64,000 nucleotides of DNA from Bradyrhizobium sp. SK17 (GTDB lineage: Bacteria > Pseudomonadota > Alphaproteobacteria > Rhizobiales > Xanthobacteraceae), in the NCBI RefSeq assembly GCF_002831585.1, contig NZ_CP025113.1, positions 7,455,001 through 7,519,000 of the forward strand, in the 5' to 3' direction. Under the pieces are notes generated by a model. The model was given only the letters and a program-made list of their open reading frames with translations. It was not told the origin of the DNA and did no database searches. Both the position numbers and the translations under genes were made by a program. This document shows, piece by piece, positions 13,160 through 41,602 of the stretch (its first letter is position 1; every line of letters begins with the position of its first letter).

Positions 13160-14659
13160 TCACAGATGGGCTTCGAAGGCGTCACGTTGCGCGCGCGTCA
13201 AATGCAAGCCGTGCTTGGTGCGCCGCTCGAGAAAATCCGCGGGCTCCTCCGCCCACTCCGTTGCCCGGAGAAAGTCCGCCTCGCATTCATAGAAATCTCC
13301 GCCGAAGTGACGGCCAAGGTCGATGACGCTACGGGCCGATCCAAGCAGGTCGCGCGCGCGGGTGCCGTAGAGCCGCGCATAATGATGCGTCAGCGTGCCG
13401 GGCAGATCGGGATAGGCTCGCGCGAGCTCTGTCGCGAAGCCCTCGAACGTGCCGCCGATGTCACCGCCGGGCAAGGGCTTCCCCGCCGTCCAGGCTGGCG
13501 ACATCTTGTGAAACCAGGGCGCCAAGCGACCAAGCGCGTGCTCGGCGAGCCGGCGGTAGGTCGTGATCTTGCCGCCGTAGATCGTAAGCAGCGGCGGCTC
13601 CTCCGGCGTGCCGTGGACCTCGAATACATAGTCGCGCGTGACCGCCGATGGATTGTCCGAATTGTCGTCGTAGAGCGGCCGCACACCGGAAAAGGCATGC
13701 ACGATGTCGTGCTGCCCCGGAGACGCGCGAAAGTAGCGCCGCAGGATGCCGAGCAGATAGGCGGTCTCGTCGGCATCGATCACGACGTCCTCCGCCCGGC
13801 CGTCATAGGGAATGTCGGTGGTGCCGATCAACGCCAGACTGTCCTCATAGGGATTGACGAAGATCACGCGGCGATCCTCGTTCTGGAGCAGATAGGCCTG
13901 CGGCCCGCTCCAGAATTTCGGCACCACGATGTGGCTGCCCTTGACCAGCCGCACATTGTGCGACGAGTTCAATCCCACGACGCCCTGCACGACATCACTC
14001 ACCCAGGGGCCGGCCGCATTGACCAGCGCACGCGCGCGCACCACCTGCGGACCGCCCACGCCTTGCATCTCCAGACGCCAGGCGCCCTGCTCCCGCCTCG
14101 CGCTCACCGCGCTGGTCCGCGGCAGGATGACGGCGCCGCTGCGGGCGGCATCGATCAGGTTGAGGATCACGAGCCGAGCATCGTCGACCCAGCAATCCGA
14201 ATACTCGAAGCCGCGGCGATATTCCTCGCGGAGCGGCTTGCCTTCGGGCGCGCGTGACAGATCGAGCCCGCGGCTCGCCGGCAACTGCTTGCGGCCGCCG
14301 AGATGGTCATAGAGAAACAGCCCGCTCCGGATCAGCCAGGCCGGCCGCTGCTCGGGCGAATGCGGCAGCACGAAGCGCATCGGCCAGATGATATGCGGCG
14401 CAGATGCCAGCAGCACCTCGCGCTCGATCAACGCCTCCCGGACCAAGCGAAACTCGTAGTATTCGAGATAGCGCAATCCGCCGTGCACGAGCTTGCCGGA
14501 ACGCGACGAGGTGCCCTCGGCGAAGTCGCCCTTCTCACACAGCAGCACGTTGAGACCGCGACCGGCCGCATCGCGCGCAATCCCGGCACCGTTGATGCCG
14601 CCGCCGATGATGGCGATGTCGACGAGCCCGTGGTCGGCGCCCGGTGCAGCCGCAATCAT
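13160..14659 (-). CDS. glpD: GlpD-like FAD-dependent sn-glycerol-3-phosphate (or polyol-phosphate) dehydrogenase
   Basis: 499 residues, the usual GlpD length. It carries the FAD fold DIAIIGGGINGAGIARDAAGRGLNVLLCEKGD and the family motifs GTSSRSGKLVHGGLRYLE and GPWVSDV, with IFVNPYEDSLALIGTTDIPYDG in the middle and a GlpD C-terminal helical domain. GlpD oxidises sn-glycerol-3-phosphate to dihydroxyacetone phosphate. The related EryB oxidises erythritol phosphate in rhizobia and Brucella. Here it sits behind an EryA-like kinase and a FucA-like aldolase, so a longer polyol phosphate is a plausible substrate. The start overlaps the aldolase stop by ATGA. It is the last gene of module A's minus-strand operon. 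Confidence 0.85.
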   Translation of the reverse strand: MIAAAPGADHGLVDIAIIGGGINGAGIARDAAGRGLNVLLCEKGDFAEGTSSRSGKLVHGGLRYLEYYEFRLVREALIEREVLLASAPHIIWPMRFVLPHSPEQRPAWLIRSGLFLYDHLGGRKQLPASRGLDLSRAPEGKPLREEYRRGFEYSDCWVDDARLVILNLIDAARSGAVILPRTSAVSARREQGAWRLEMQGVGGPQVVRARALVNAAGPWVSDVVQGVVGLNSSHNVRLVKGSHIVVPKFWSGPQAYLLQNEDRRVIFVNPYEDSLALIGTTDIPYDGRAEDVVIDADETAYLLGILRRYFRASPGQHDIVHAFSGVRPLYDDNSDNPSAVTRDYVFEVHGTPEEPPLLTIYGGKITTYRRLAEHALGRLAPWFHKMSPAWTAGKPLPGGDIGGTFEGFATELARAYPDLPGTLTHHYARLYGTRARDLLGSARSVIDLGRHFGGDFYECEADFLRATEWAEEPADFLERRTKHGLHLTRAQRDAFEAHL

Positions 14660-15414
14660 CGCGTCCTGCTGCGCTTCTTCTCGACCCGCCTGTGTGCCGC
14701 GGCCTTTCGTGTCGACCGGCTCTTCGCGGCCTTCTTCGCGGCCTTTGCCGCCTTGGGCTTCGGCGCCTGCAAGCCGTAGCTGGAGAAGCCCCGCGCGGTC
14801 TCGGCGATCTGCTCCTCGCTCAGAATGTGCGGGGTCTCGAGTGCGAGCGAGAGATAGTACTGACGCGCGATGGTTTCGAGCTCGACCGCAAGCCACATCG
14901 CCTTGTCGAGATTGGCGCCGACGGCGATCATGCCGTGATTGGCCAGCAGGCAGCCGTTGCGGCCTTCGAGCGCGGCCAGCGCATGCTCCGACAATTCAGC
15001 GGTGCCGTAGCGCGCATAGCCCGCGCAACGGATGTCGTGGCCGCCGAACGCGGCCATCATGTAATGGCAGGCGGGAATCGGCTTGCGCGCGATCGCCAGC
15101 ACGGTGGCGTAGGTCGAATGGGTGTGCACGATGCCGCCGACATCGGGCCGGGCGCGCATGATGTCGAGATGGAAGCGCCATTCGGTCGATGGCTGCAACG
15201 GCCCATCCCATGAGCCATACTCGCCCTCCAGCGGCATCGAGGCGATCATGTCCGGCTTCATCGCATCGTAGGGCGTGGCCGACGGCGTGATCAGCATCCT
15301 GTCCTTGTAGCGCGCGGAGATGTTGCCCGACGTTCCCTGGTTGAGACCCGACGCGTTCATCCAGCGGCACTTGGCGATGATCGCCTCGCGCAATTGTCGT
15401 TCCTCACGGGTCAT
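14656..15414 (-). CDS. Class II (zinc) aldolase, L-fuculose-1-phosphate aldolase-like, with basic C-terminal tail
   Basis: 252 residues. Residues 1-216 align well with E. coli FucA as I remember it, including the phosphate-binding GTSGNIS loop (27-33), catalytic Glu78 in STEWRFH, zinc ligands His97 and His99 in VHTHS and the later His160 in ANHGMI. FucA-type enzymes cleave ketose-1-phosphates to DHAP and an aldehyde. Residues 217-252 are an extra tail rich in Lys, Arg and Ala (16 of 36 are K/R), absent from the paralog at 39989-40666, with which the body shares about 80% identity by hand alignment. Its neighbours (kinase, GlpD) suggest cleavage of a keto-polyol phosphate. Confidence 0.88.
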   Translation of the reverse strand: MTREERQLREAIIAKCRWMNASGLNQGTSGNISARYKDRMLITPSATPYDAMKPDMIASMPLEGEYGSWDGPLQPSTEWRFHLDIMRARPDVGGIVHTHSTYATVLAIARKPIPACHYMMAAFGGHDIRCAGYARYGTAELSEHALAALEGRNGCLLANHGMIAVGANLDKAMWLAVELETIARQYYLSLALETPHILSEEQIAETARGFSSYGLQAPKPKAAKAAKKAAKSRSTRKAAAHRRVEKKRSRTR

Positions 15415-15433
15415 ATCAAGGCACCTTTCGTCT

Positions 15434-16504
15434 TCAGCAGGGATTGAGCGGCGGCTCGCCGGCCAGGAAGCGGCGAACCTCCTCAGCCGCCTGGTCGGCG
15501 GCGAAGGTCACGGTACGCACGGAGGCGCCGGCGATATGCGGCGTCAGCGTGACATTGGGCAGTTGCAGCAGCGGCCAGTCGGGCGGCACCGGCTCGACCG
15601 CGAAAGTGTCGAGCGTCGCGCCACCGAGCCGTCCCGCCGACAAGGCCTCGGTGAGCGCGTCATAGTCGACCAGCGGGCCGCGTGCGGTGTTGATGAAGAA
15701 GGCATCCGGCTTCATCCGCGCCAGCGCCGCACGATCGATGAACCGGGTGGTCTCGGCGGTGACCCTGGCGTGCAGGCTGATTACGTCGGCGCGCGCGAGC
15801 AGATCGGCGAGGCCGACATGCTCGACGCCGTCATTGCGGTCCTGGGCGCTGATCTGGACATAGGGATCGGCCACCAGGATCTTGCAGCCGAACGCCTTGA
15901 GCAGCTTCACCACGCGGCTGCCGATCGCGCCATAGCCGACGATCCCGACCGTCATCTCGCCGAGCTCGCGCCCAGTGCGATCGGCGCGGTAGAGATCGCC
16001 GCGCCATTCGCCGGCGCGCAGCGATTCATGGCCGCTGCGGATCAGCCGCGTCTCGGCAAGAATGGCGCCGATGGTGAATTCGGCCACCGCGCTGGCGTTG
16101 CGGCCCGGTGTGTTGACGACCAGCACCTTGTGGTCGCGCGCGGCCTGCATGTCGATATTGACCGGACCGCCGCGCGACACCGCGATGAATTTGAGGTTCG
16201 GCAGCCGTTCCAGCATCGACCGCGAGATCGGCGCCAGATGCGTCACCAGCATCGGCGCGTCGCCGATGAAGCCGGCGATCTGATCCGGATCGCCCATGAA
16301 CTCCTTCAACCCGTCGAGCTTGGAGCCGGCGTAGCCGTGCTCCATCGGCTGGTCCGGCCACGGCTGCTCGAGCATACGAATATCGACATCCTTGCCGCAC
16401 GCCGCCACGATCCGCTCGGCAAACACCGACGGCAGCATGAAACGATCGCCGATGATGGCAATGGTGTCAGACGCGATGGCATCAGACCTGATGGCATCAG
16501 ACAT
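15434..16504 (-). CDS. D-isomer-specific 2-hydroxyacid dehydrogenase family protein
   Basis: 356 residues. It has the NAD fold GIVGYGAIGSRVVKLLKAFG with the acidic residue at VADPYV, the catalytic Arg in LHARVT, the INTARGPLVDYDAL block and the catalytic His in LTPHIAGAS. Enzymes of this family reduce or oxidise 2-keto/2-hydroxy acids such as glyoxylate, hydroxypyruvate or phosphoglycerate. In this operon it could handle an acid made from the aldehyde released by the aldolase, but that is inference. The chosen ATG at 16504 overlaps the upstream kinase gene by 8 bases. Confidence 0.88.
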   Translation of the reverse strand: MSDAIRSDAIASDTIAIIGDRFMLPSVFAERIVAACGKDVDIRMLEQPWPDQPMEHGYAGSKLDGLKEFMGDPDQIAGFIGDAPMLVTHLAPISRSMLERLPNLKFIAVSRGGPVNIDMQAARDHKVLVVNTPGRNASAVAEFTIGAILAETRLIRSGHESLRAGEWRGDLYRADRTGRELGEMTVGIVGYGAIGSRVVKLLKAFGCKILVADPYVQISAQDRNDGVEHVGLADLLARADVISLHARVTAETTRFIDRAALARMKPDAFFINTARGPLVDYDALTEALSAGRLGGATLDTFAVEPVPPDWPLLQLPNVTLTPHIAGASVRTVTFAADQAAEEVRRFLAGEPPLNPC

Positions 16505-18077
16505 GGCCACCTCCTGCACGTAACGCTGCGAGTTGCTTCCAGACCGGCCGCGCCGCGAGGCGGGCATTGAGATAGGCCGGGAACAGGCGCGAATAGCGCG
16601 TGGCGAGCTCCGGATCGTGCGCCTGCGGCGCGTTCAGGCACGGCCTCACCCAATCCTCCGCGCAGGCCGTCATGTCGGGATAGATCCCGGTCGCCACCGC
16701 GGCGATCATCGCAGCGCCCGCCGCCCCGGCTTCACTCCGGCTGCAAACCCGCACATTGCATTCGAGTGCGGCGCCGAGGATGGCGCCGAGCGCCCGGCTT
16801 CGCGACGCACCACCGGTGATCCGGAGGTCACGCGGCAGCGAGCCCATCGCGGCGTAGCAATCGCGTGCGGCAAAGGCGAGCCCTTCCATCACCGCCCGCA
16901 TCAGATCCCAATAGCCATGGCGCGTGCGCAGCCCCAGGAATTGCGCACTGGCTTCGTGCGACACGAAGGGACCGCGCTCTCCGGCATCGGAGATGAAGGG
17001 ATGGAACAGCAAATCGCCCGGCCGCGCCGCGAGCACGCGCGCGTCGAGCCCGCGGATCAGATCGGCCCGCGATCGCGTCACGCCTTCGACCGCCAGCAGG
17101 TCTCGCGCCAGATCGATCAACCAGTCGATATTGAGCGTTGCCGCCATGTTCGACTGCATCTGCGCAAAGTGGCCGGGTACTGGGAACGGCATGGTGTAGC
17201 CGGTCGCCTCGGGATTGAGCACCACCGCATCCGCGCTTGGCGCCAGCCGCATATGCATGCCGGTGGAGCCGATGATGGTGCAGCCGACGTCGGGCGCCGG
17301 ATCGTAAAGTCCCGCACCGAGCGCGTTGCAGATCACGTCGACATAGCCGAGCGACACCGGAATTCCCTCGGGCAGCCCGGTCTCCAGCGCCGCGGCCGCG
17401 CTCAACGGATGCGTCGTCACCGCGCCGTCGACCACATCGGGAAACAGCGGCATGCAGTCGGAAATGCCGATCAGCTTCGCGGTCTCCGCATCAAAGCTGC
17501 GCCTGCGGAAATTCCCGCAGGTGAAGCTCGCTTCCGACGGATCGGTGGCACGCTGGCCGGTGAGCAGGAAATACAGCCAGTCCTTGCAGTGGAATGCAGT
17601 CCGTGCGCGTGCCAGGGCCTCTGGCGCGTGGGTTTGCATCCAGGCGAGCTGCGGGCCCTGCTGGCAGGCGCTCAGCCCCGAGCCGGTGCGCTGATAGAGC
17701 GCGGCATTCCGATCGCTGCCACGGATGCTCTCGACCAGGTCGCCGGCCCGCGAGTCGAGCCAGAGCAGGGCCGGCGCAACCGGATGGCCATCATCGTCGA
17801 TCAGCCAGGTGCCGTCGCCCTGCCCCGTGACGGCCACGGCCGCCACCCGCGATCCAACGTCCGGCACCGCGGCCACAAGACCACGCACCGCGGCCACGGT
17901 GTCGGTCCAGGTGCGCGCCATATCCTGCTCGACCCGGCCGCCGGGCGCGGTGCTGTAGCTGTTGGGCAGCGAGAAGTCGGCGAGCTGGCGGCCATCGCGC
18001 GTGAACGCCACCGTCTTGATCAGTGACGTTCCGGCGTCGATGCCGATGATCACATCGCGGCTCTGCGGCATCGACAT
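16497..18077 (-). CDS. FGGY-family carbohydrate kinase, EryA-like
   Basis: 526 residues, FGGY two-domain kinase length. The N-terminal phosphate loop DVIIGIDAGTSLIKTVAF is followed by TGQGDGTWLID, SACQQGPQLAWM and GCTIIGSTGMHMRL; the C-terminal ATP-domain block is DLRITGGASRSRALGAILGAAL. GDGTW and the Q-rich substrate loop remind me of erythritol kinase (EryA) rather than glycerol kinase or xylulokinase. It would phosphorylate the polyol or ketose imported by the ABC transporter encoded upstream. The start at 18077 lies one base from the stop of the preceding ATPase gene. Erythritol specificity is a guess from memory of the family. Confidence 0.84.
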   Translation of the reverse strand: MSMPQSRDVIIGIDAGTSLIKTVAFTRDGRQLADFSLPNSYSTAPGGRVEQDMARTWTDTVAAVRGLVAAVPDVGSRVAAVAVTGQGDGTWLIDDDGHPVAPALLWLDSRAGDLVESIRGSDRNAALYQRTGSGLSACQQGPQLAWMQTHAPEALARARTAFHCKDWLYFLLTGQRATDPSEASFTCGNFRRRSFDAETAKLIGISDCMPLFPDVVDGAVTTHPLSAAAALETGLPEGIPVSLGYVDVICNALGAGLYDPAPDVGCTIIGSTGMHMRLAPSADAVVLNPEATGYTMPFPVPGHFAQMQSNMAATLNIDWLIDLARDLLAVEGVTRSRADLIRGLDARVLAARPGDLLFHPFISDAGERGPFVSHEASAQFLGLRTRHGYWDLMRAVMEGLAFAARDCYAAMGSLPRDLRITGGASRSRALGAILGAALECNVRVCSRSEAGAAGAAMIAAVATGIYPDMTACAEDWVRPCLNAPQAHDPELATRYSRLFPAYLNARLAARPVWKQLAALRAGGGHV

Positions 18078-18078
18078 G

Positions 18079-19194
18079 TCAGCCCGCCTCCGCATGGCGA
18101 ATGCAGACCCCGTCGGCACCGAAGATATGAAGATGCCGTGAGTCCAGCGAGAATGGGATGACGTCACCCGGCCGCGCGGCGACCCGGCTCGACGTCACCG
18201 CGATCAGCTGATTGCCGGCGCATTCGCCCGCGACATGCGCCTGGTCGCCGAGCCATTGATTGGACATCACCCGCACCTGCACGTCGCCGCTCCCGACCGT
18301 GACCTTCTGCGGTCGGATCCCGACACGAACGCGCTTGCTCTGCGCCAGCGCTCGCTGTGCGGCCGGACCGAGCGTGCCACTCGGAACATGGAACGCGATG
18401 TCAGGCCCCGCGGACAGGCGGAAATCGCCGTCCGCGGCCGCAACATCGGTCTCCAGCAGGTTCATCGGCGGCTCGCCGATGAAGCTCGCCACGAACAGGT
18501 TGGCCGGTCGGTTCTTCAGCTCCTTCTCGCTCGCGAACTGTTGCAGCACACCGTCTTCCATCACCGCGATCCGGTCGGCCAGCGCGCTTGCCTCGGTCTG
18601 GTCATGGGTGACGAAGATCGCCGTCATGCCGCGCTCGGCCAGCAGGCCCTTGATCCGCCCGCGCAGCACGGCGCGGAGCTGCGGCTCGAGCTGTCCCATC
18701 GGCTCATCGAGCAGATAGAGATCGGCGTCGCGCACCAGCGCCCGCGCCAGCGACACCCGTTGCTGCTGGCCGCCCGAGATCGAGCGCGGATATTTGTCGA
18801 GCGTATCCTCAATCTCCACGAGCCGCGCGATCTCGTCGACACGGCGATTGACCTCGCCATGCGACAGCTGCTGCGCCTTCAGCGCGAAGGCGATGTTCTC
18901 GCGCACCGTGAGCGGCGGATAGAGCGAATAGCCTTCGAACGCCATCGCCACCTTGCGCCGCGCCGGCGGCAGCTCATCGATCCGCCGCGCGCCCAATGCG
19001 ATCTGACCCGAGCTGACGCTTTCAAAACCCGCGACCATGCGCAAGGTCGAGGTCTTGCCGCACCCTGACGATCCCAGCAGTGCAACGATCTCACCTCGTC
19101 CGACCGCCATATCCAGCGCGCGCACGGCATGAACCGGCGGCTTGCCGCGGCTGCGATAGACCTTGTCGACATTGCGGATTTCGAGCATGCCCAT
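18079..19194 (-). CDS. CUT1-type ABC transporter ATP-binding protein, module A, partner 1 (Glu in Q-loop)
   Basis: 371 residues. Walker A is GSSGCGKTS (41-49), signature ISGGQQQR (139-146), Walker B LYLLDEP with catalytic Glu164, and H-loop VTHDQT with His197. The Q-loop reads MAFEGYSLY, with Glu87 where MalK/UgpC proteins have Gln, and the D-loop is GQLEPQLR instead of [13 protein letters not shown] domain follows (RVGIRPQKVTVG). It is encoded beside a second, differently degenerate ATPase (19211-20314), so the two most likely form a heterodimer, like the GlpS/GlpT pair of rhizobial glycerol importers. The start at 19194 (ATG GGC ATG CTC) removes a non-homologous extension. Confidence 0.88.
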   Translation of the reverse strand: MGMLEIRNVDKVYRSRGKPPVHAVRALDMAVGRGEIVALLGSSGCGKTSTLRMVAGFESVSSGQIALGARRIDELPPARRKVAMAFEGYSLYPPLTVRENIAFALKAQQLSHGEVNRRVDEIARLVEIEDTLDKYPRSISGGQQQRVSLARALVRDADLYLLDEPMGQLEPQLRAVLRGRIKGLLAERGMTAIFVTHDQTEASALADRIAVMEDGVLQQFASEKELKNRPANLFVASFIGEPPMNLLETDVAAADGDFRLSAGPDIAFHVPSGTLGPAAQRALAQSKRVRVGIRPQKVTVGSGDVQVRVMSNQWLGDQAHVAGECAGNQLIAVTSSRVAARPGDVIPFSLDSRHLHIFGADGVCIRHAEAG

Positions 19195-19210
19195 GGTCAC
19201 CTCGCCTGCC

Positions 19211-20314
19211 TCATGCCGCCTGCCGCCGGTCCGGCTGACCGACACGGAGCCCGGTTGCGCGATCGAACAGCAGTGCGCCCTGCGGCGCGAACCGAACGAA
19301 CACGTCGTCATCCGCGCTCGCCACCGGCGCATCCGGCGGCAGTGCCGCGAGCCATTCCGAACCATCGGCGAACCGCAGCAACAGCACGGCGCGCTCATGC
19401 ATCGGCGTGATGGCGACGACGCGGGCGGGAATGGCGTCATCTCCGGCATTGCGGCCGATCACGAGGTCGCCGGGACGAACCCCGAGCCAGTACGGACCGT
19501 GTGGGGTCGACGGATCGATCGAGTCCAGCCGCACCCGCGTCCCCGCAACCTCGGCACTCAGGCCGCCCTGCCCGGCCTGAAGCGCGACCTCGGCAAGGTT
19601 GATGCTGGGATCGCCGAACAGCCGCGCGACGGCCACGGACGCCGGCTTCGCATAGACCTCTTCAGGTCGCGCCAGTTGCACCAGCCGGCCGCCGACCAGG
19701 ACCGCGATCCGGTCCGCGATCGCCATCGCCTCGCGATAATCCTGCGTGACATAGAGCACCGCGGCCGAGCTTCTGCGCAGCAGGCTCGGCAATTCCAGCC
19801 GCATCTCGTAGCGCAGCTTGGCATCGACGTTGCGAAGCGGGTCATCGAGCAGCAGCACGTCGGGATTGCCGATCAGCGCGCGCGCCAATGCGGTGCGTTG
19901 CTTCTGCCCGTTCGACAATTCGCGCGGCATGTGGCCGAGGACATGCTCGATCTTCAGGAGTTTGCTGACTGAGGCGACCCGCGACGCGACGTCGCCGCCA
20001 CCGGCTCCCGCGCGCACGCCGCTCGCGATGTTGTCGCGTGCGGTCATGTGCGGGAACAGCGCGAAGTTCTGGAACGCCATGCCGACCCCGCGCCGCTCCG
20101 GCGGGGCGCCGACGATCGAGCGACCGCCGACCAGAATGTCGCCCTCGTCGGGCTCGTACATGCCGGCGACCATCCGCAGCAACATGGTCTTACCGCTGCC
20201 CGAGGGACCGAACACCGCGACGATCTCGCCGGGTTCAACCGTGAACGACAGCCCGTCGGCGCAGCGGATCGGGCCGAACGACTTGCCGAGAGCGTTGATG
20301 TCGAGACGCGCCAT
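19211..20314 (-). CDS. CUT1-type ABC transporter ATP-binding protein, module A, partner 2 (degenerate catalytic motifs)
   Basis: 367 residues. Walker A is intact (GPSGSGKT, 36-43) and the Q-loop Gln82 is present (AFQNFALFPHMT). The signature is LSNGQ (133-137), not LSGGQ. Walker B is VLLLDDP, with Asp158 in place of the catalytic Glu, and the H-loop is VTQDYREAM, with Gln191 in place of the switch His. These are the residues needed for hydrolysis, so this protein's own site should be weak or inactive, whereas partner 1 keeps both. A TOBE-like domain is present (YWLGVRPGDLVIG). It lies between partner 1 and the permease genes in the same operon. Confidence 0.88.
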   Translation of the reverse strand: MARLDINALGKSFGPIRCADGLSFTVEPGEIVAVFGPSGSGKTMLLRMVAGMYEPDEGDILVGGRSIVGAPPERRGVGMAFQNFALFPHMTARDNIASGVRAGAGGGDVASRVASVSKLLKIEHVLGHMPRELSNGQKQRTALARALIGNPDVLLLDDPLRNVDAKLRYEMRLELPSLLRRSSAAVLYVTQDYREAMAIADRIAVLVGGRLVQLARPEEVYAKPASVAVARLFGDPSINLAEVALQAGQGGLSAEVAGTRVRLDSIDPSTPHGPYWLGVRPGDLVIGRNAGDDAIPARVVAITPMHERAVLLLRFADGSEWLAALPPDAPVASADDDVFVRFAPQGALLFDRATGLRVGQPDRRQAA

Positions 20315-20317: not shown

Positions 20318-21175
20318 TCAGCCCTTCACCGCGCCGAGCGACAGCCCTTCGACCAGATAGCGCTGGGCGTAGAGCGCGAGCAGCAAGGTCGGCGTCACCG
20401 ACAGCACGATCGCCGCCGCGATCTGCCCGTACTGGATTCCCGAGGCCGTGACGAAGGCCAGCGCACCGACCGTCACCGGCTGCTTGTCGGCAGAGGCCAG
20501 GATCAGCGCGAAGACAAAATTGTTCCAGCAGAAGATGAACGACAACAGCCCGGCGGCCGCGATGCCGGGACCGGCCAGCGGCACCGCGATGCGGGCAAAG
20601 GTCTCGCGCCAGGAATGCCCGGCCAGGCGGTAGGCGTGCTCGATGTCCGGGCTGATATCCTCGAAATAGCCACGCACGATCCACAGGATCAAGGGCAGCG
20701 CGATCAGTTGATAGACCCAGACGATGCCGAAATAGGTGTCGCTGAGGCCGAGCTGCTGATAGTAGAGCGACAGCGGCAGCAGCACCAGCAGCGGCGGCGC
20801 GAAGCGGAACGACAGCAGCGTGAAGGCGATGGATTCGCCGAGCCTGAACTTGAAGCGCGCGAACGCATAGGCCGCCGGCACGCCGAGCAGCAGCGCAAGG
20901 ATCACCGCCGCGCTCGACAGCACGAAGCTGTTCATCAAATTGCGCATGAAGGAGATTTCGAGATTGCCGGCCGTGGTGCGCAACTGTCCCGAGATCAAGG
21001 CCTGGTAATTGGTCAGCGTCGGCTCGAACAGGATGCGCGGTGGAATCCGCAGGATCTGCTCGTTGGTCTGGAAGGACATCAGGAAGATCCAGACGATCGG
21101 AAACATGAAGAACACCAGCACGAGCGCCAGCGCGACACCCCGGAAGATGCGACCCGCAAGACTGGAATGATCCAT
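20318..21175 (-). CDS. CUT1-type ABC transporter permease, MalG-like, module A
   Basis: 285 residues with about six membrane helices, the first being VALALVLVFFMFPIVWIFLMSF. The EAA loop is EHAYRLAGHSWRETFARIAVPLAGPG. The C-terminus ends in LLALYAQRYLVEGLSLGAVKG, the usual MalG/UgpE end. It pairs with the permease at 21192-22124. It resembles GlpQ-type permeases of rhizobial glycerol importers, judged mainly from the two-ATPase gene arrangement. Confidence 0.92.
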   Translation of the reverse strand: MDHSSLAGRIFRGVALALVLVFFMFPIVWIFLMSFQTNEQILRIPPRILFEPTLTNYQALISGQLRTTAGNLEISFMRNLMNSFVLSSAAVILALLLGVPAAYAFARFKFRLGESIAFTLLSFRFAPPLLVLLPLSLYYQQLGLSDTYFGIVWVYQLIALPLILWIVRGYFEDISPDIEHAYRLAGHSWRETFARIAVPLAGPGIAAAGLLSFIFCWNNFVFALILASADKQPVTVGALAFVTASGIQYGQIAAAIVLSVTPTLLLALYAQRYLVEGLSLGAVKG

Positions 21176-29660: not shown

Positions 29661-29708
29661 GGTCTCCTCCATCTTCTTCTTCGCGTTTCTGCGAGGCGAC
29701 CCGGCGAG

Positions 29709-30818
<1,110 letters not shown>

Positions 30819-33163: not shown

Positions 33164-33169
33164 TCCATC

Positions 33170-34808: not shown

Positions 34809-35699
34809 CTACTCCTTGAGTGATCCGAGGGTCAGGCCGCGGACAAGCTGCTTCTGAACGAGCAAGATGAAGATGAAGCTCGGGATCACGGCGGTGGTGC
34901 CGAGCGCCGCGATGAAGCCCCATTCCGAGCCCGTCGAGGTGACGAAGGTCGTGATCTTGACCGGCAATGTGCGGATCGAATTGGTCAGGAACAACGACAG
35001 CAGGAATTCGGTCCACGAGAAGATGAAGCAGAGCACGGCGGTGGCGGCGACACCGCCCTTCACCATCGGCAGCACGACGCGCCAGAAGATCTGCAATCGC
35101 GTGGCGCCGTCGATCATGGCGGCTTCGTCGACGTCGACCGGGACGTCGTCGTAGAACGATTTCATCAGCAGGACGGCGATCGGCAGGTTGATCAACGTGT
35201 CGACCAGGATCAACCCGAGCCGGGTGTCGAGCAGCGACATGTAGTGGAACATGAAGACGACCGGCACGATGATCGCGATCGGCGGCATGAAGCGCTGCGA
35301 CAGGATCCAGTTCAGATAGGCCTGCCGCCAGCGGAACCGCATCCGCGACAGCGCATAGGCCGCCAGCACCGCCAGCAGCAGGGTCAACGCGGTCGCGCCG
35401 ACCGCGATCAGCAGCGAATCGATGATGGTCTGGCGGCTGTCATAGGAGCTTGCGCCACCCACGCCAAACGTGTTGCCGGATTCGATCGCGAGCTCCGCGC
35501 GCGACTTGCCGAGCATGGTCACGGCATAGTTCACCAGCGTCGGCTTGAAGTTGAACCAGACGATCTCGTCCTTGTCGAAGATCGCCGACGTCGGCTTGAA
35601 CGAGGTCAGCGCCCACCAGAACAGCGGAAACATGAAGATGCCGACCACGAGCACAGCGGCCACGTCGCGCAATCGCTTCTGCCAGAAGGTTTCCTGCAT
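34809..35699 (-). CDS. CUT1-type ABC transporter permease, MalG-like, module B
   Basis: 296 residues. The first helix is VAAVLVVGIFMFPLFWWALTSF, the EAA loop DEAAMIDGATRLQIFWRVVLPMVKGG, and the C-terminus FILLVQKQLVRGLTLGSLKE. It overlaps the upstream permease stop by one base (TGATG), so the two are coupled. It forms the channel with the permease at 35699-36640. Confidence 0.93.
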   Translation of the reverse strand: MQETFWQKRLRDVAAVLVVGIFMFPLFWWALTSFKPTSAIFDKDEIVWFNFKPTLVNYAVTMLGKSRAELAIESGNTFGVGGASSYDSRQTIIDSLLIAVGATALTLLLAVLAAYALSRMRFRWRQAYLNWILSQRFMPPIAIIVPVVFMFHYMSLLDTRLGLILVDTLINLPIAVLLMKSFYDDVPVDVDEAAMIDGATRLQIFWRVVLPMVKGGVAATAVLCFIFSWTEFLLSLFLTNSIRTLPVKITTFVTSTGSEWGFIAALGTTAVIPSFIFILLVQKQLVRGLTLGSLKE

Positions 35700-36640
35700 C
35701 AGAACCGCACCTTGAACAGCTTGATGAAGATGGTCGAGGTGACGATCACCAGGAGCAGGGTGAACAGCGAGATCGTCGAGGCGTAGGGAAAGTCGGCATT
35801 CTTGAAGTAGATGGTGCCGGCGTAGGAGGTCAGCGTCTCCGTGGCGGTGCCTGGTCCGCTATCGGTCATCACCTTGACGTAGTCATAGATACGGAACAGG
35901 TCGACGCCGCGGATCAGGACCGCGAGCGCGATGATCCTGGACAGCATCGGCAGCGTCAGGCGGAAGAAGGCCTGCCTTGGGGTTGCTCCGTCGATCGCGG
36001 CGGCCTCGAACGGCTCCTTCGGCAGAGCGCGCAGCCCGGCGAGCATGATCAGCACCATGAACGGCGTCCACTGCCAGATGTCGGCGAGCAGAACGCCGGC
36101 CAGCGCCGAGTGGCTGGAAGCGAGGATCGGATATTGCGGCGGCCACAGCCCGAGCGACACCAGCCCCATGCTGAGCACGCCGAACGAGCCGTCCAGCATC
36201 AACAGGAACATCATGCCGGTGACCGCGGGCGGCACCACCAGGGGCAGCGTCATCAGCGCGCGGAGCAATCCGTAACCCTTCCGGTCACTGTCGAGCAGCA
36301 GCGCGATGGCGAGGCCGAGGCAGAGTTCGATCAGCAGCGCGATGATCGTGTACATATAGGTGTGGCCGATCGCACCCCACACCCGATCGTCGGCGAACAG
36401 CTTTCCCCAATTCCAGGTCGGGTTGAACACGTTCATCCGGGTGACCGGGTTGCGCTTGAAGAGCGAGAGCCACAGCGCATAGAGCAGCGGATAGACACCG
36501 AACGCCAGCAGCAGCGCGGTGATCGGCGCCAGCCACGGGAACGGGTGTTCCGAGGTCAGAAACCGTGGCCAGACGCTGCGCCGCGTCGTGCCCGATACCG
36601 GCACGTCGACAGCCAGACTCCGCGCATGGTGCGACACCAT
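35699..36640 (-). CDS. CUT1-type ABC transporter permease, MalF-like, module B
   Basis: 313 residues from the preferred ATG at 36640, which has GCGAGGAA upstream; a start at 36658 would add six residues. The first helix is PFPWLAPITALLLAFGVYPLLYALWL, and the EAA loop is EAAAIDGATPRQAFFRLTLPML. KVMTDSGPG replaces the usual TQGGP motif. It is the second gene of the operon after the SorC regulator, with a short gap. Confidence 0.92.
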   Translation of the reverse strand: MVSHHARSLAVDVPVSGTTRRSVWPRFLTSEHPFPWLAPITALLLAFGVYPLLYALWLSLFKRNPVTRMNVFNPTWNWGKLFADDRVWGAIGHTYMYTIIALLIELCLGLAIALLLDSDRKGYGLLRALMTLPLVVPPAVTGMMFLLMLDGSFGVLSMGLVSLGLWPPQYPILASSHSALAGVLLADIWQWTPFMVLIMLAGLRALPKEPFEAAAIDGATPRQAFFRLTLPMLSRIIALAVLIRGVDLFRIYDYVKVMTDSGPGTATETLTSYAGTIYFKNADFPYASTISLFTLLLVIVTSTIFIKLFKVRF

Positions 36641-36707
36641 TGACGTTTCCTCGCGCATCGCTTTTCTCTCGGCGCCGGGCTCTTTCGGCCCAGTTCGCTG
36701 TCTTGTT

Positions 36708-37745
36708 TCAGGGCCGGCGTGATACTCCGGATCGGGGAGACCGGGCCGCGCGTGGCACCAGCGCTCGCGCCGTTGCCACGTCGGTCACCAGAATTGTTGC
36801 GTAGTTGCTGTTGAGCGCGGCGTAGACCGCATCGACCTTGTCGCTGCCGCCGGCAATGCAGATGCGCTCCGGCACGTTGGCGATCTCGTCGAGCGTCAGG
36901 CCGATCATCTGGTTGTCGAGTGCGCCGAGGATCGGCTCGCCTTCCCTGCCGATGAAACGTCCACTGACCACGCCGACGGCGCCACGCGCCAGATACGGCG
37001 CGATGTTCTCGGGCGACATGTAGCCGCTGCGCATCGCGGTGCCGGCATCGTCGACGCTGCCGACGCCGAACAGCACCTTGTTGCTCGACCGAATGATCTT
37101 GAAGGTTTCGACCAGCGCCGGCTCCTGCATGAACAGGCGCTTGATCTGGGCGGTGGAAACGATGCCCGGGGCATGCAGGTTGACGCAGCGCGCGCCAAGC
37201 CGGTTGGCGATATTGGAGGTGCACAGCTCCGGAGAGAATTCCGTGGTGCCGATCGAGCAACCGGTGATCTGGGCGACGGTCACGCCCGGAAGCTTCATTT
37301 CGGGCAACGACGCCGACAGCGCCTGCACCGTGCGCCCCCACGATACGCCGAGCACATCGTCGGGCTGCAGCCGCTCGATCAGAAGCTTCGCGCCGGCCAT
37401 GCCGATCCGCTCATGCACCGGCAAACGGCCGCCGTCATCGGGCACGACGAGACAGCTGGTGAGGCCATATGCGTCGGCCAATTCGCGCGCGAGGCCGATG
37501 GTCTGCAAATGCCGTGACGACACCGCGATCGTGACGATGTTGCGGTCGCGGGCTTCTTGCAGAAAGTTCACGACCGAGGCGCGCGAGACACCGAGTTGAT
37601 CGGCGACCTCTTCCTGCGTCATGCCCTCTTCGTAATAGAGCCACGCCGCCCATACGACAGGATCGCTGTCGAACTCTGCGGGGATCGACAACGCCCTGCG
37701 CTTGATGCGCGGCGGCGTCACCTGGCGTTGCAGCGTCTTGGTCAT
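36708..37745 (-). CDS. SorC/DeoR-family sugar-binding transcriptional regulator, module B
   Basis: 345 residues from the ATG at 37745; a GTG 13 codons earlier is an alternative. The helix-turn-helix lies in PVVWAAWLYYEEGMTQEEVADQLGVSRASVVNFLQEARDR. The effector domain shows VLGVSWGRTVQALSASLP and LFGVGSVDDAGTA, as in other SorC proteins that bind phosphorylated sugars. It is divergent from the AraM-like dehydrogenase gene; the gap has two TTGTCAA palindromes. It leads the minus-strand transporter-kinase operon and probably represses both directions until its sugar phosphate appears. Confidence 0.91.
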   Translation of the reverse strand: MTKTLQRQVTPPRIKRRALSIPAEFDSDPVVWAAWLYYEEGMTQEEVADQLGVSRASVVNFLQEARDRNIVTIAVSSRHLQTIGLARELADAYGLTSCLVVPDDGGRLPVHERIGMAGAKLLIERLQPDDVLGVSWGRTVQALSASLPEMKLPGVTVAQITGCSIGTTEFSPELCTSNIANRLGARCVNLHAPGIVSTAQIKRLFMQEPALVETFKIIRSSNKVLFGVGSVDDAGTAMRSGYMSPENIAPYLARGAVGVVSGRFIGREGEPILGALDNQMIGLTLDEIANVPERICIAGGSDKVDAVYAALNSNYATILVTDVATARALVPRAARSPRSGVSRRP

Positions 37746-37790
37746 CAGCGATCCGGCATCAACGTCGTCGTTCACAAAATGCACATCGTA

Positions 37791-37839
37791 TTGACAATTG
37801 TCAATCAGCCCGATTAATTGCCATCACGATTTGTCAAAT
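37791..37839. promoter_or_regulatory. Palindromic operator pair with built-in TTGACA boxes, module B
   Basis: TTGACAATTGTCAA at 37791-37804 is a perfect 14-bp palindrome, and ATTTG-T-CAAAT at 37829-37839 is a second, shorter one. The TTGTCAA units start 33 bases apart (37798 and 37831), about three helical turns. The first palindrome carries TTGACA on both strands, usable as a -35 box in each direction. At 17-base spacing the -10 candidates are TTAATT (plus) and CATTTT (minus), both weak. It is the likely SorC binding region. Confidence 0.65.
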
Positions 37840-37896: not shown

Positions 37897-39216
37897 ATGT
37901 CACAGCACAACTGGACCGCGCTGATCGACGATCTGGTGGCAGGCCGCTGGATCAATCCGCTCACCGGTGCAGCGGTAAAGGTGCCCTACGACTCCATCGC
38001 GATCGAAGACAGCCTCGAGGGACGCGAGGCCGAACTGGTCGCCGCCTTGAAACTCGGCGATCGCCTTGCTTTGGTCGCCGACGAGGCGACGTATGAGGCA
38101 ATGGGCGCGCGCGTAGCCAAGGCGCTGCGCGAACTCGGTCCGGTCGAGACTGTCGTGCTCGATCATCCCCACGCCGACATGGCCGAGGTCCGTAGCCTGA
38201 CGGAAAAGTTGCGCGCGTTCGATGCGGTCGTTGCGGTCGGCTCCGGCACGGTCAACGACCTCTGCAAATACGTGACGGGCCTGGACGACCGGCGCTATTG
38301 CGTGTTCGCCACCGCCGCCTCGATGAACGGCTACACCTCGTCGACGGCATCGCTCACGCTCGACAGTGGCTTGAAGGTGTCGCTGCCCTCGCACACGCCT
38401 GCGGGCTTCTTCGTCGACCTCAAGGTGTCCGCCGCCGCGCCGCCCTACCTCGCCGCCTCCGGCTTCGCGGATTGCCTCGCCCGTTCGGTCGCGCAGACCG
38501 ACTGGTGGATGTCGCACCGGCTGCTGGGCACCGCCTATTTCCAGGAGCCTTACACGATCCAGGCCGCCGACGAGATCGAGCTCAACAAGCGCGCCGGCAA
38601 TCTGCCAAAGGGTGACATCGAGGCGATGGGATATCTCTATCGCGTGCTGACCCTGTGCGGCCTCGGCATCTCCTTTACCGGCGTTTCGCACCATGGCTCG
38701 ATGGGCGAGCATCAGATCTCGCACTACATCGATTGCTTCGCGGGTGCACGTCATCCCGGCTCCCTGCACGGCCAGCAGGTGGGCATCGCGGCATTGAGCA
38801 TGGCGCGGCTGCAGCAGCAGATGCTCGCCGCAGATCGCCCGCTGTCAGTTCATGCGACGCACATCGATTTGGCCGACATGAAGCGTCGTTTCGGCGCGGA
38901 AGTTGCCCTGCAATGCGAGGCCGAGTTGAAGCAGAAGGCGTTCGACCAGGACGGAGCCATCGCGTTCAACCGCAAGCTGGAGGATGCATGGCCCGAGCTC
39001 CGGCGCGAGCTCTCCGCCTTCACGATTCCGGTTCACGAAATGAAGCGGCTGTTGTCAGCCGCTGGTGGTCCCACGACGGCAACCGAGCTCGGCGTGCCGC
39101 TGGGCTTCTATCGCGAAGCCATCGTGCATTGTCGGGAGATGCGTAACCGCTTTTCCTTCCTCGACATTGCCGCGGATGCCGGAACGCTGGAGGCATTTGC
39201 GCAAGGCGAAAATTGA
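37897..39216 (+). CDS. sn-Glycerol-1-phosphate dehydrogenase-like protein (AraM/EgsA family)
   Basis: 439 residues, somewhat longer than archaeal G1PDH. The NAD-binding motif AVGSGTVNDLCKYV, ATAASMNGYTSSTASLTLDSG and the histidine-rich metal site TGVSHHGSMGEHQISHYIDCF fit the iron-alcohol-dehydrogenase-like G1PDH family. Family members reduce DHAP to sn-glycerol-1-phosphate, and B. subtilis AraM lies in a sugar operon. Here, with an FGGY kinase and a FucA-like aldolase, it more likely oxidises a polyol phosphate. A frame extends upstream, but the ATG at 37897 begins the conserved part. Confidence 0.87.
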   Translation: MSQHNWTALIDDLVAGRWINPLTGAAVKVPYDSIAIEDSLEGREAELVAALKLGDRLALVADEATYEAMGARVAKALRELGPVETVVLDHPHADMAEVRSLTEKLRAFDAVVAVGSGTVNDLCKYVTGLDDRRYCVFATAASMNGYTSSTASLTLDSGLKVSLPSHTPAGFFVDLKVSAAAPPYLAASGFADCLARSVAQTDWWMSHRLLGTAYFQEPYTIQAADEIELNKRAGNLPKGDIEAMGYLYRVLTLCGLGISFTGVSHHGSMGEHQISHYIDCFAGARHPGSLHGQQVGIAALSMARLQQQMLAADRPLSVHATHIDLADMKRRFGAEVALQCEAELKQKAFDQDGAIAFNRKLEDAWPELRRELSAFTIPVHEMKRLLSAAGGPTTATELGVPLGFYREAIVHCREMRNRFSFLDIAADAGTLEAFAQGEN

Positions 39217-39231: not shown

Positions 39232-39957
39232 ATGACTGCAAAGCCGCTCGTCGCCGTGACCGGTGCCAGTTCCGGCATCGGAGAAGCCACCGCCCGCGCC
39301 TTTTCTGAGGCCGGCCATCCCGTCCTGCTGATGGCACGCCGGATCGAACGGCTGGATGCCATGCGCCTGCCCAGTTCGATCTGCCGCAAGGTCGATGTGC
39401 GCGATCGCGCCGCGCTGACCGCCGCCGTGCGGGACGCCGAGGCAGAGTTCGGCCCGGTCGACATGATGTTCGCCAATGCCGGCATTGCCAGGCTCGGGGA
39501 CATCGGCAACCAGGATCCGGCCGACTGGGATGAGATGATAGCGATCAACGTCAACGGCGTCATGAACAGCGTGCATGCCGTGATGGCGGGCATGATGGCG
39601 CGCCGCCACGGCACGCTCGTGATGATGAGCTCGATCGCGGGGCGAAAGGTCTATCCCGACCACACGGTCTATTGCGGTACCAAATTCTTCGTGCACGGGG
39701 TCTCCGAGAGTCTCCGTGAATATCTGTCCGGCTACGACGTCCGGGTTCTCGTCGTTTCGCCCGGCATCATCGAGACCGAGGTGCTGGACGGCGTGAGGGA
39801 TCCGGACACGCTCGCGAACTACAAGGCGAACAAGGCAGCGATCGGCGGCGGCATCGGGGCGGAGCACGTCGCGAAGCTGATCCTCGACGCCTACAACCTG
39901 CCGCAAAACGCGCTGGTGCAGGAGATCTGCATCACGCCGACCCGACAGAAATACTAA
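39232..39957 (+). CDS. SDR-family oxidoreductase
   Basis: 241 residues, classical short-chain dehydrogenase. The cofactor loop is TGASSGIG (10-17), with NAG at about 82-84, Ser133/Ser134 and the catalytic pair Tyr147/Lys151 (YCGTK). It most resembles YdfG/clavaldehyde-type SDRs acting on hydroxy acids or polyols with NADP. It follows the AraM-like gene by 15 bases with GGAGG upstream. It could interconvert the free polyol and ketose, but no substrate can be read from the sequence. Confidence 0.9.
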   Translation: MTAKPLVAVTGASSGIGEATARAFSEAGHPVLLMARRIERLDAMRLPSSICRKVDVRDRAALTAAVRDAEAEFGPVDMMFANAGIARLGDIGNQDPADWDEMIAINVNGVMNSVHAVMAGMMARRHGTLVMMSSIAGRKVYPDHTVYCGTKFFVHGVSESLREYLSGYDVRVLVVSPGIIETEVLDGVRDPDTLANYKANKAAIGGGIGAEHVAKLILDAYNLPQNALVQEICITPTRQKY

Positions 39958-39988: not shown

Positions 39989-40666
39989 ATGACCGACACC
40001 GAACTTCAGCTGCGCGAGGCGATCATCGCGAAGTGCCGCTGGATGAATGCAACCGGGCTGAACCAGGGAACGTCCGGCAACATTTCGGCACGCCATGGCA
40101 ACACCATGCTGATCTCGCCGTCCGCGACGCCATACGATTCCCTTACCCCCGACATGATCGCCGCGATGCCGATCGACGGCGAATACGGATCGTGGAAGGG
40201 GCCGCTCAAGCCCTCCACCGAATGGCGCTTCCATCTCGACATCATGAAGGCCCGGCCGGATGTTGGCGGGATTGTGCACACCCATTCGACCTACGCCACC
40301 GTGCTGGCGATCGCGCGCAAGGAGATTCCGGCGTGCCACTACATGATGGCGGCGTTCGGCGGCATGAACGTCCGTCTCGCCGATTATGCGAGGTTCGGCA
40401 CGGCGGAGCTGTCCGAGTATGCGCTCGCCGCGCTCGAAGGCCGCACGGCCTGCCTGCTCGCCAATCACGGAATGATCGCCACGGGTGCGTCGCTCGACAA
40501 GGCGATGTGGCTCGCCGTCGAGCTCGAGACGATCGCCCGGCAATATTATCTGACGCTGGCAATCGGTGGGCCGGTGCTGTTGAACGAAGCCCAGATCGGC
40601 GAGACTGCCGCCGCCTTCGGCAGTTACGGCGTGCAGGATCCACCAGTCGGAAATTTACAGGCATAG
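39989..40666 (+). CDS. Class II (zinc) aldolase, L-fuculose-1-phosphate aldolase-like
   Basis: 225 residues. It has the FucA layout: GTSGNIS phosphate loop (27-33), catalytic Glu78 (STEWRFH), zinc ligands His97, His99 and His160. It is about 80% identical by hand alignment to residues 1-216 of the module A aldolase at 14656-15414 but lacks that protein's basic tail. FucA-type enzymes release DHAP and an aldehyde from a ketose-1-phosphate. Behind the AraM-like dehydrogenase and SDR, it is the expected cleavage step of module B. Confidence 0.9.
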   Translation: MTDTELQLREAIIAKCRWMNATGLNQGTSGNISARHGNTMLISPSATPYDSLTPDMIAAMPIDGEYGSWKGPLKPSTEWRFHLDIMKARPDVGGIVHTHSTYATVLAIARKEIPACHYMMAAFGGMNVRLADYARFGTAELSEYALAALEGRTACLLANHGMIATGASLDKAMWLAVELETIARQYYLTLAIGGPVLLNEAQIGETAAAFGSYGVQDPPVGNLQA

Positions 40667-40765
40667 CGGCGCCGCCGAGAGGCACCATGTGATCAGCTTG
40701 GCTCCGATCGGAATCCGGACGGAAGAAGCTGCGGCCACGGCACCGCTCGCGGTCGGAGCACGGTC

Positions 40766-41602
40766 ATGAAACGCATCGCCGGGTTACGCGAGATCGCAGA
40801 TCAGTTCGACCTCTTCCTGATCGAGCAGTACGGCGTGCTGCACGACGGCGTCGCCGCCTACCCGCGCACGATCGACGGATTGGCGAAGATCACGGCCTGC
40901 GGCCGAAAGATCATCATCCTGACGAACTCCGGAAAATGCGCGGCAGCAAACCGGGCCGACCTCCACGCGCTGGGTTTTGCCGGCTCTTGCCTGAGCGGCA
41001 TCGTCAGCTCGGGCGACGTGGCCCTGCAATGCGTCAAGAGCGGGGTATTGGGGCCGCCCTTCGCAGCGGGCGCAGCCGTTTGCGTGATCGGCGATCCCGA
41101 CGACCACTATGCCTTTTCGTCGGATGACTTCGAACTGGTCGACCAACCGCAAGACGCCGCCTTTCTGGTGTTTGCCGGATCCGACGTACCGCGGGTCTCG
41201 CTGCGGGCCTATCAAGATGCACTGGCAAGTCCCGCCAGAGCGCACGTGCCGGCGATCTGCATCAACCCGGATATCGCGACGATCCGCCATGGCGAGATCG
41301 TGCCGGCAGCAGGAGCCATCGCGAGGCTCTACGAGGATCTGGGTGGCTCGGTCGAGTATATCGGCAAGCCGCATCTGCTGATCTTCGCCCACGCCGTCGC
41401 AACCGCCGAATTGCGGCCCGGCGCGCGGCTCGTGATGGGCGACAGCCCGCATCATGACGTGGCCGGCGCAAGACCGATGGGACTATCGACGCTTCAGGTC
41501 CAAAGCGAGAATTATCGCCATTTGCCAAAGTGCCAATTACTGCGTCTGTGCGACCGATCCAACGGCGTCCCGGATTTCGTCATCCCGGCCTTCGCGTGGT
41601 GA
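40766..41602 (+). CDS. HAD superfamily class IIA-like protein with Glu in place of the nucleophile, module B
   Basis: 278 residues, paralog of the module A HAD at 26141-26980. Motif II (ILTNSGKC), the lysine motif (YIGKPHLLIFAHAV) and motif IV (VMGDSPHHDVAGA) are conserved, but motif I is LFLIEQYGVLHDG: residue 20 is Glu (codon GAG) where every active HAD phosphatase has the nucleophilic Asp. It is therefore likely non-catalytic as a phosphatase, perhaps a binding or regulatory protein. It follows the aldolase by about 100 bases. The ATG has only a weak upstream GAGCACGG. Confidence 0.84.
   Translation: MKRIAGLREIADQFDLFLIEQYGVLHDGVAAYPRTIDGLAKITACGRKIIILTNSGKCAAANRADLHALGFAGSCLSGIVSSGDVALQCVKSGVLGPPFAAGAAVCVIGDPDDHYAFSSDDFELVDQPQDAAFLVFAGSDVPRVSLRAYQDALASPARAHVPAICINPDIATIRHGEIVPAAGAIARLYEDLGGSVEYIGKPHLLIFAHAVATAELRPGARLVMGDSPHHDVAGARPMGLSTLQVQSENYRHLPKCQLLRLCDRSNGVPDFVIPAFAW

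Follow-up and report, generated by a model that had tools for sequence, protein, structure and literature searches.

We found two parallel gene modules, A and B, in a 64,000-nucleotide stretch of the 8.29 Mb genome of Bradyrhizobium sp. SK17 (hereafter the window; assembly GCF_002831585.1, contig NZ_CP025113.1, positions 7,455,001 to 7,519,000). Each encodes a SorC regulator, an importer, an FGGY kinase, a polyol-phosphate-type dehydrogenase and a FucA-type aldolase, as identified by Pfam and NCBIfam scans. The type of dehydrogenase differs, being GlpD-like in module A and glycerol-1-phosphate dehydrogenase (G1PDH)-like in module B. We tentatively propose, at slightly less than even confidence, that A is an erythritol route and B a D-threitol route, both of which lead via D-erythrulose-1-phosphate to dihydroxyacetone phosphate (DHAP) and formaldehyde; the substrates, reactions, handedness and direction of these routes are what we infer. 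More doubtful is the broader idea of a combinatorial tetritol system, in which opposite-handed EryB/GlpD- and G1PDH-type enzymes would be combined with a natural erythrulose-1-phosphate formaldehyde-lyase (FucA-type here, RhaD-type elsewhere) that replaces the EryC-TpiB-RpiB branch.

Gene content of the two modules

Module A occupies the minus strand at 13160-24733, and module B both strands at 28020-41602 (coordinates count from the first letter of the window). The initial annotation had extended A to 28013; its gene set holds as far as 24733, and the remainder (24864-28013) is a separate, divergent cassette, C. All genes which that annotation had named in the two modules were located by the family scans. 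Outside its account were the D-2-hydroxyacid dehydrogenase family (2HADH) gene between kinase and aldolase of A, and the genes for a short-chain dehydrogenase/reductase (SDR), HAD-IIB and HAD-IIA phosphatases and a GMC oxidoreductase in B.

Module A:
13160..14659, minus: EryB/GlpD-family FAD polyol-phosphate dehydrogenase (DAO/DAO_C); open reading frame to 14896, true start at about 14659 by homologue alignment
14656..15414, minus: FucA-type class II aldolase with a basic C-terminal tail (Aldolase_II); aligned to residues 4-216 of E. coli FucA (1fua)
15434..16504, minus: 2HADH (2-Hacid_dh(_C)); open reading frame to 16567
16497..18077, minus: FGGY kinase, EryA-like (FGGY_N/C); open reading frame to 18167
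18079..20314, minus: two ABC importer ATPases (ABC_tran and TOBE_2)
20318..21175 and 21192..22124, minus: two ABC permeases (BPD_transp_1)
22234..23673, minus: solute-binding protein (SBP_bac_1); best solved relative 4rya, molecule named '(Sorbitol)'
23696..24733, minus: SorC-family regulator, EryD-like (Sugar-bind)

Module B:
28020..29672, minus: GMC oxidoreductase, conserved in four relatives (L132, L134, L135, L141)
29709..30818, minus: single ABC importer ATPase
30834..31600 (start approximate), minus: HAD-IIB phosphatase; open reading frame to 32171
31634..33178, minus: FGGY kinase
33230..34759, minus: solute-binding protein; 5iai is its nearest solved structure in both sequence and fold
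34809..35699 and 35699..36658, minus: two ABC permeases
36708..37784, minus: SorC-family regulator (Sugar-bind)
37897..39216, plus: G1PDH/AraM-like NAD dehydrogenase (Fe-ADH_2); open reading frame from 37798, true start at about 37897
39232..39957, plus: SDR oxidoreductase
39989..40666, plus: FucA-type class II aldolase (Aldolase_II)
40766..41602, plus: HAD-IIA phosphatase (TIGR01459), 34% identical to that of cassette C

The aldolases of A and B align with 174 of 218 residues identical (80%), as the initial annotation had estimated, and the other counterparts share 23-39%.

Proposed tetritol scheme

In module A, erythritol would be imported and phosphorylated by the EryA-like kinase, and the EryB/GlpD-type flavoprotein would oxidise the carbon next to the phosphate to give D-erythrulose-1-phosphate. 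In module B, D-threitol, the C2 epimer of erythritol, would be imported and phosphorylated by the second FGGY kinase, and the NAD-dependent G1PDH-like enzyme would oxidise that carbon, here of opposite configuration, so that D-erythrulose-1-phosphate again results. The FucA-type aldolases, which are 3R selective, would then cleave this compound to DHAP and formaldehyde in place of the EryC-TpiB-RpiB branch, and general enzymes would oxidise the formaldehyde.

With the phosphate drawn on top, a GlpD-type enzyme would be expected to oxidise the right-hand C2 hydroxyl, as in sn-glycerol-3-phosphate, and a G1PDH-type enzyme the left-hand one. Right-then-right would correspond to erythritol (or ribitol) and left-then-right to D-threitol (or D-arabitol), so that each pair would meet in one ketose phosphate. 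From formaldehyde, FucA and RhaD yield the 3R product D-erythrulose-1-phosphate, on which EryC acts (PMC10733421). We read the 'L-3-tetrulose-4-phosphate' of Brucella (PMC11508834) as the same compound numbered from the other end. The earlier suggestion of pathways for polyols of opposite configuration survives in the two parallel kinase/dehydrogenase/DHAP-aldolase modules with families of opposite handedness; it needs amending in that the substrates would be C2 epimers meeting in one ketose phosphate. Its products, DHAP plus an aldehyde, agree with a DHAP-aldolase in both modules, and since the genome contexts described below indicate tetritols, the aldehyde would be formaldehyde.

Module A resembles erythritol proteins

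Compared with the ery locus on pRL12 of Rhizobium johnstonii 3841, whose Ery names we assigned from the gene order described in PMC3599248 and from a Marinovum record naming EryA, EryB and EryC, the kinase of A is 52% identical to EryA, the dehydrogenase 64% to EryB and the regulator 53% to EryD. Proteins of EryA, EryB and EryD type are thus present together, the grouping of the kinase with EryA being the less firm: EryA and the A-type kinases form a group at 95/95, inner support being weaker and some branches long, in a tree that has a xylulokinase as outgroup. The dehydrogenase is closer to EryB than to the other GlpD of the genome (54%), and in a tree of 11 dehydrogenases EryB falls inside the A-type group, separated from GlpD at support 100/100. 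The GlpD-like label given initially therefore holds for the family, as a polyol-phosphate dehydrogenase, and gives way to a grouping with EryB within it. The enzyme passes the GlpD model (PRK13369/NF009906) with 782.6 bits at a cut-off of 352; the other GlpD scores 762.1, and the scores do not separate EryB-like from GlpD.

Module A as a housekeeping glycerol operon was rejected, because GlpK (682.7 bits, above its cut-off) and this second GlpD, followed by an ABC importer, stand elsewhere in the genome; the open frame preceding that glpD encodes an aminotransferase. Within the window, tblastn gave no match to TpiB or RpiB of pRL12, nor was EryF or EryG matched there, and EryE was matched only as a general ABC ATPase; the importers of A and B are of the SBP_bac_1 type and not of the EryEFG or Mpt type.

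We surveyed 66 loci with an A-type kinase, a non-random set that includes near-copies and repeat stretches. Among the 56 with enough flank, 2HADH was present in 56, a FucA-type aldolase in 54, a GlpD-type gene in 54 and SorC in 52; L148 and L155 were without the aldolase, L149 and L151 without the GlpD-type gene. Outside this flank filter, L022 and L037 had no 2HADH in the stretch examined. The 2HADH as an NAD-dependent formate dehydrogenase was rejected by eye, as it retains the catalytic Glu at the position where formate dehydrogenases carry Gln.

The missing EryC and the FucA-type aldolases

In known erythritol breakdown, EryC and two isomerases convert the EryB product to erythrose-4-phosphate (PMC11508834, PMC10733421). 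We did not find EryC in the window's own genome with a query that found it in NGR234 at 70% identity (positive control), and because it was not found, the usual route via the EryC epimerase, TpiB and RpiB would be unavailable. Nor was EryC found in any of the 49 searched genomes with a FucA-type aldolase, namely 47 genomes (that of L016 not among them), the own genome and BTAi1; no separate positive control accompanied the search of the 47; its query detects EryC in NGR234 and, among 249 genomes of the order, in 20. For BTAi1, the portion of PMC3599248 available to us likewise lists no EryC. Jiella avicenniae and Fulvimarina pelagi carry EryD-A-B and DUF2291-EryE-F-G with a FucA-type aldolase directly after EryG, and EryC was not found in the Jiella and Fulvimarina genomes searched.

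Both aldolases of the window are full-length FucA homologues with the catalytic Glu, three His and Tyr (alignment to 1fua; 70 rows). They score 199.7 (A) and 187.6 bits (B), below the cut-off of 400.25 bits of the curated fucA equivalog TIGR01086. Across the 70 aldolases, the 13 active-site columns checked are identical save one G/A and one F/Y/W position, and in these rows the F/Y exchange at the position of FucA F131 does not separate A from B aldolases. In their tree, the context must have switched between A and B at least four times on branches with good support, several long branches being unsure, and a single change occurred in 0 of 200 bootstrap trees. The aldolases of the ery-like locus and the B locus in Fulvimarina share 215 of 223 residues; a B-like aldolase (about 88%) stands in two Bradyrhizobium A-type loci (L017, the same stretch as L130, and L131); and in G534, where A and B operons are adjacent, the 40 kb examined hold one FucA-type aldolase, in the B operon, plus a RhaD-type one in cassette C. 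One interchangeable kind of aldolase serves both contexts, and other genera show the scheme as well.

Some aldolases show peculiarities. That of A ends in some 35 residues rich in Lys, Ala and Arg (14656-14760), a C-terminal tail that B's does not have, and the aldolase frames of many other Bradyrhizobium A-type loci are likewise longer. An aldolase 89% identical to A's, in a record named Frankia sp. RB7 (L036), falls inside the Bradyrhizobium clade, and the assembly is probably misnamed or contaminated. At L115:2136-3464, a DRL-type oxidoreductase (PF21135) adjoins a 53% FucA-type aldolase; DRL can substitute for DXR in the methylerythritol phosphate pathway.

Module B and its relatives

The best NCBIfam match of B's dehydrogenase is the G1PDH model PRK00843 (134.9 bits), below the cut-off of 413 bits for glycerol-1-phosphate dehydrogenase (NF002022). 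D225, H305 and H324, presumably metal ligands by analogy, are invariant in 20 aligned sequences. The binding protein shares about 26% identity with 5iai, and the fold comparison gave only the known sugar-binding fold.

We fetched 43 loci with a G1PDH-like gene, again a non-random set with near-copies and some stretches included twice. They contain an FGGY kinase in 35, SorC in 29, a class II aldolase in 25 (one, L129, possibly an SDR match only), HAD-IIB in 16, a GpsA-like gene in 10, a GlpD-like gene in 8 and RpiB in 7. The HAD-IIB gene lies 1.0-1.3 kb from the G1PDH gene in these 16 loci, all of other genera, a count that leaves aside the window and its Bradyrhizobium relatives, where HAD-IIB sits further off in the importer run. 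Where identity is at least 50% and 8.4 kb is available on either side (21 loci), FGGY kinase (21/21), SorC regulator (20/21) and class II aldolase (18/21) are nearly constant companions. An Acidiphilium locus combines kinase, SorC, G1PDH, HAD-IIB, GlpD, importer and FucA-type aldolase.

These data bear on the idea, in our view very improbable, that module B salvages or makes glycerol-1-phosphate compounds, with the G1PDH-like enzyme acting on sn-glycerol-1-phosphate and DHAP, and HAD-IIB removing the phosphate. The closeness of HAD-IIB in the 16 loci and the G1PDH model as best match would fit such a role, as would the GlpD-like gene within 2.3 kb in 8 loci; the 5 of these genes included in trees cluster with the second GlpD of the genome. 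However, a kinase, a SorC regulator and an aldolase would be needless for such a route, the score is below the cut-off, and the G1PDH-like gene co-occurs with EryC.

An opposite-handed enzyme pair within one locus, tried as a rule for B-type loci, was weakened: a GlpD-, GpsA- or EryB-like gene is near in 19 of 43, where the EryB-like label is the provisional one from L111. Two L111 genes first taken as EryA/EryB-like instead match the second FGGY kinase and the GlpD-like oxidase of the ery region of pRL12, the A-type genes being closer to EryA and EryB. The GpsA-like NAD glycerol-3-phosphate dehydrogenase near the G1PDH-like gene occurs in L115-L120, L124, L125, L161 and L168; six of these ten loci have an RpiB-like gene, and in four no class II aldolase was seen. 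G1PDH, HAD-IIB and a GlpD-like gene form a single run in L121-L123, L144-L146 and L152, and the FGGY kinase near L121's run scores above the xylulokinase cut-off (512 bits).

Distribution and genome contexts

B's dehydrogenase occurs at 86-100% identity in 8 of 265 genomes of the genus. The pairing of A and B is more than chance, because an aldolase in the identity class of A's (75-79% identical to that of B) accompanies it in all 8; this class is present in 73 of the 265 (hand count, one partial). A ninth genome, 67% complete, has G1PDH at 52% and no aldolase match. The gene-block order A-C-B recurs in three further genomes (G396, G464, G320). The closest relatives of the window's genes belong to Bradyrhizobium.

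In an order-wide sample of 249 genomes, a G1PDH-like protein of at least 47% identity occurs in 15, EryC in 20 and both in 8 (Fisher p 1.8e-6, with the threshold set after the list had been viewed and kinship ignored). G043 has module B contiguous with EryA-D, EryEFG, TpiB and RpiB; cassette C and EryC come next after B in G040, G080 and G115; EryC-TpiB-RpiB and an A-type operon run divergently in G068 and G208; and in G029 and G103 the G1PDH-like gene and EryC are further apart or on separate contigs. This adjacency to erythritol genes in other genera would tie B-type loci to tetritols.

Four carbons or five, and other substrates

A less likely alternative is a pair of pentitol routes, in which A would use ribitol and B D-arabitol, both leading via D-ribulose-1-phosphate to DHAP and glycolaldehyde, with the 2HADH and SDR handling the two-carbon product. 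FucA also cleaves D-ribulose-1-phosphate, and glycolaldehyde would supply a substrate for both oxidoreductases. Furthermore, ribitol is the ligand (PMC8468352) of 5iai, the solved structure closest to B's binding protein, and the Mpt transporter of S. meliloti carries adonitol (ribitol) besides erythritol (PMC3599248). Several observations speak for tetritols instead. The enzymes of A resemble EryA and EryB, A- and B-type modules adjoin EryC, TpiB or RpiB in some other genomes, and an erythritol locus that has the aldolase and no EryC is ordinary in other respects. In addition, B-type loci with at least 50% identity (n=26, near-copies included) carry a FucA-type aldolase in 13 cases and a RhaD-SDR in 7. 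As the two aldolase types differ in stereochemistry at C4, a position that matters for pentuloses but is no stereocentre in a tetrulose, this swap favours four carbons.

Sugar acids or other non-polyols are a distinctly improbable choice, by which the kinase would phosphorylate an aldonate, the 2HADH would oxidise it and the aldolase would serve as lyase or decarboxylase. Of 61 loci having both kinase and 2HADH, 60 have the two within 250 bases of one another, and the genes overlap in the window, L143, L147, L149 and L151; two loci retain kinase, 2HADH and aldolase without a GlpD-type gene. Class II aldolases also include 3-oxo-tetronate-4-phosphate decarboxylase, whose model NF043034 gives 101.5 bits for A's aldolase; the FucA model, however, gives 218.6 bits, twice that score. 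Module B has the same kind of aldolase and no 2HADH, the ery-like kinase, dehydrogenase and regulator together with the erythritol transporter in Fulvimarina and Jiella indicate a polyol, and the 2HADH is without a PGDH-like arginine at the phosphate site (judged by eye).

Our proposal of an erythritol route and a D-threitol route must be weighed against several observations. The 2HADH, constant in A-type loci, has no role in the tetritol scheme, and in Shinella and Paracoccus the stretch examined has kinase, 2HADH and aldolase without a GlpD-type gene. Several of the 47 aldolase-bearing genomes are metagenome assemblies and possibly incomplete, and the EryC search was confined to that one family. 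In S. meliloti Ak57, one locus (L143) unites FucA-type and RhaD-type aldolases with EryC, TpiB and RpiB, G208 has EryC plus a 53% FucA-like aldolase (L118), and NGR234 has an A-type operon with EryC on a replicon where the best FucA-type aldolase match is not close (47%); these three weigh against mutual exclusion of EryC and the FucA-type aldolase, Ak57 and G208 not being among the 49 genomes. In module B, the dehydrogenase has Asn in the S-M-x-G motif where L128 and L129 have Asp, and 5iai, related to the binding protein at about 26% identity, holds a pentitol. No class II aldolase was seen within 10.5 kb in 18 of the 43 G1PDH loci, some of them near a contig end. A second dehydrogenase is present in B-type loci of other genera (GlpD-like in 8 and GpsA-like in 10 of the 43), so that a single locus may hold G1PDH plus a GlpD-like or GpsA-like gene, contrary to a strict assignment of one hand to each module. 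Finally, where RhaD-type aldolases of B-type loci carry a fused SDR, formaldehyde would suit that SDR less well than an oxidisable aldehyde of two or three carbons.

Regulation and neighbouring genes

Each module has its own SorC regulator, as initially annotated, and its own candidate operator:

24748..24761, no strand: candidate operator of A, palindrome TGCAAAAAATTGCA, in the divergent region between A and C
37791..37804, no strand: candidate operator of B, perfect palindrome TTGACAATTGTCAA

The palindrome of the A/C divergent region, TGCAATTTTTTGCA, recurs without change in all 20 upstream regions compared; the pattern TGCAA-N3-7-TTGCA has a single match in the window, at A's candidate operator (0.2 expected). 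The B palindrome has one exact copy in the window and a second site at 37831 with three mismatches; it is exact in four of five Bradyrhizobium copies compared, with one change in the fifth. Because the candidate operators differ, separate inducers of A and B are suggested.

Cassette C is divergent from A's regulator and outside its gene run:

24864..26144, plus: short FGGY-family kinase (FGGY_N/C), which occurs with A- and B-type loci
26141..26980, plus: HAD-IIA phosphatase (TIGR01459)
26991..28013, plus: RhaD-type class II aldolase domain

Past module B follow an adenylate/guanylate cyclase with DUF5939 (41662-43143) and a 501-aa open frame (43140-44645), for which no Pfam or NCBIfam match was found. 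About 170 kb beyond the window, the same genome holds a third cluster of SorC, ABC importer, FGGY and SDR genes (L011, G000:C1:7689000-7704000); its FGGY protein is a pentulose kinase above its cut-off, and the cluster gave no match to a FucA-type aldolase. In other genomes, a lumazine/riboflavin synthase gene adjoins the A-type operon of L147 (Gemmobacter) and the erythritol locus of L170 (Marinovum), and the set in L143 of Ak57 is the core set of the engineered erythrulose monophosphate cycle.

Comparison with known systems

The published alphaproteobacterial erythritol route passes through three isomerases. Many Bradyrhizobium and some Aurantimonadaceae have the erythritol-type kinase and dehydrogenase, and EryC was not found in those searched, which leaves a gap in their downstream route. 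This gap would close if the aldolase replaces EryC, and a natural enzyme would then be at hand for a reaction that synthetic biologists borrowed from a side activity. The G1PDH-like family would also acquire a catabolic function, directed at tetritols with the other configuration, and the bacteria would convert erythritol and threitol partly into a one-carbon unit. In the open-licence full-text literature searched we found no description of the A/B pair, as the initial annotation had supposed, or of an aldolase replacing EryC.

The ery locus of Rhizobium and Brucella (EryA, EryB, EryC, EryD, EryR-TpiB-RpiB, EryEFG) is homologous to module A in the kinase, the flavoprotein dehydrogenase and the SorC-type regulator, and it also has a polyol-type importer. 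In contrast to it, the window's genome is without a detectable EryC and the window without TpiB/RpiB matches, the importer is of the SBP_bac_1 type instead of EryEFG, and module A has the FucA-type aldolase and the 2HADH in addition. The L-fucose/D-arabinose pathway (FucK, FucA) likewise combines an FGGY kinase with a FucA-type aldolase with conserved catalytic residues that yields DHAP and an aldehyde, whereas our modules insert a polyol-phosphate dehydrogenase between the two; a fucose isomerase was not named among the window genes in the general family scans. With glycerol-1-phosphate dehydrogenase/AraM, B's enzyme shares the sequence family and the candidate metal ligands, but differs in its score below the family cut-off, in Asn for Asp in S-M-x-G and in its context of polyol kinase and aldolase.

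The tetritol pathways of Mycobacterium (Huang 2015, as cited in PMC12780249 and PMC10733421) likewise take erythritol and both threitols through erythrulose phosphates. They differ in that phosphorylation follows the formation of free erythrulose, with isomerases leading on to erythrose-4-phosphate (PMC12780249, PMC10733421). The proposed aldolase step has a counterpart in the synthetic erythrulose monophosphate cycle (PMC10733421), where FucA or RhaD links DHAP, formaldehyde and D-erythrulose-1-phosphate, a formation described there as a side activity of both enzymes, with EryC, LerI and DerI downstream. That cycle is engineered and run toward formaldehyde fixation, whereas in the Bradyrhizobium modules the reverse may be the natural main reaction.

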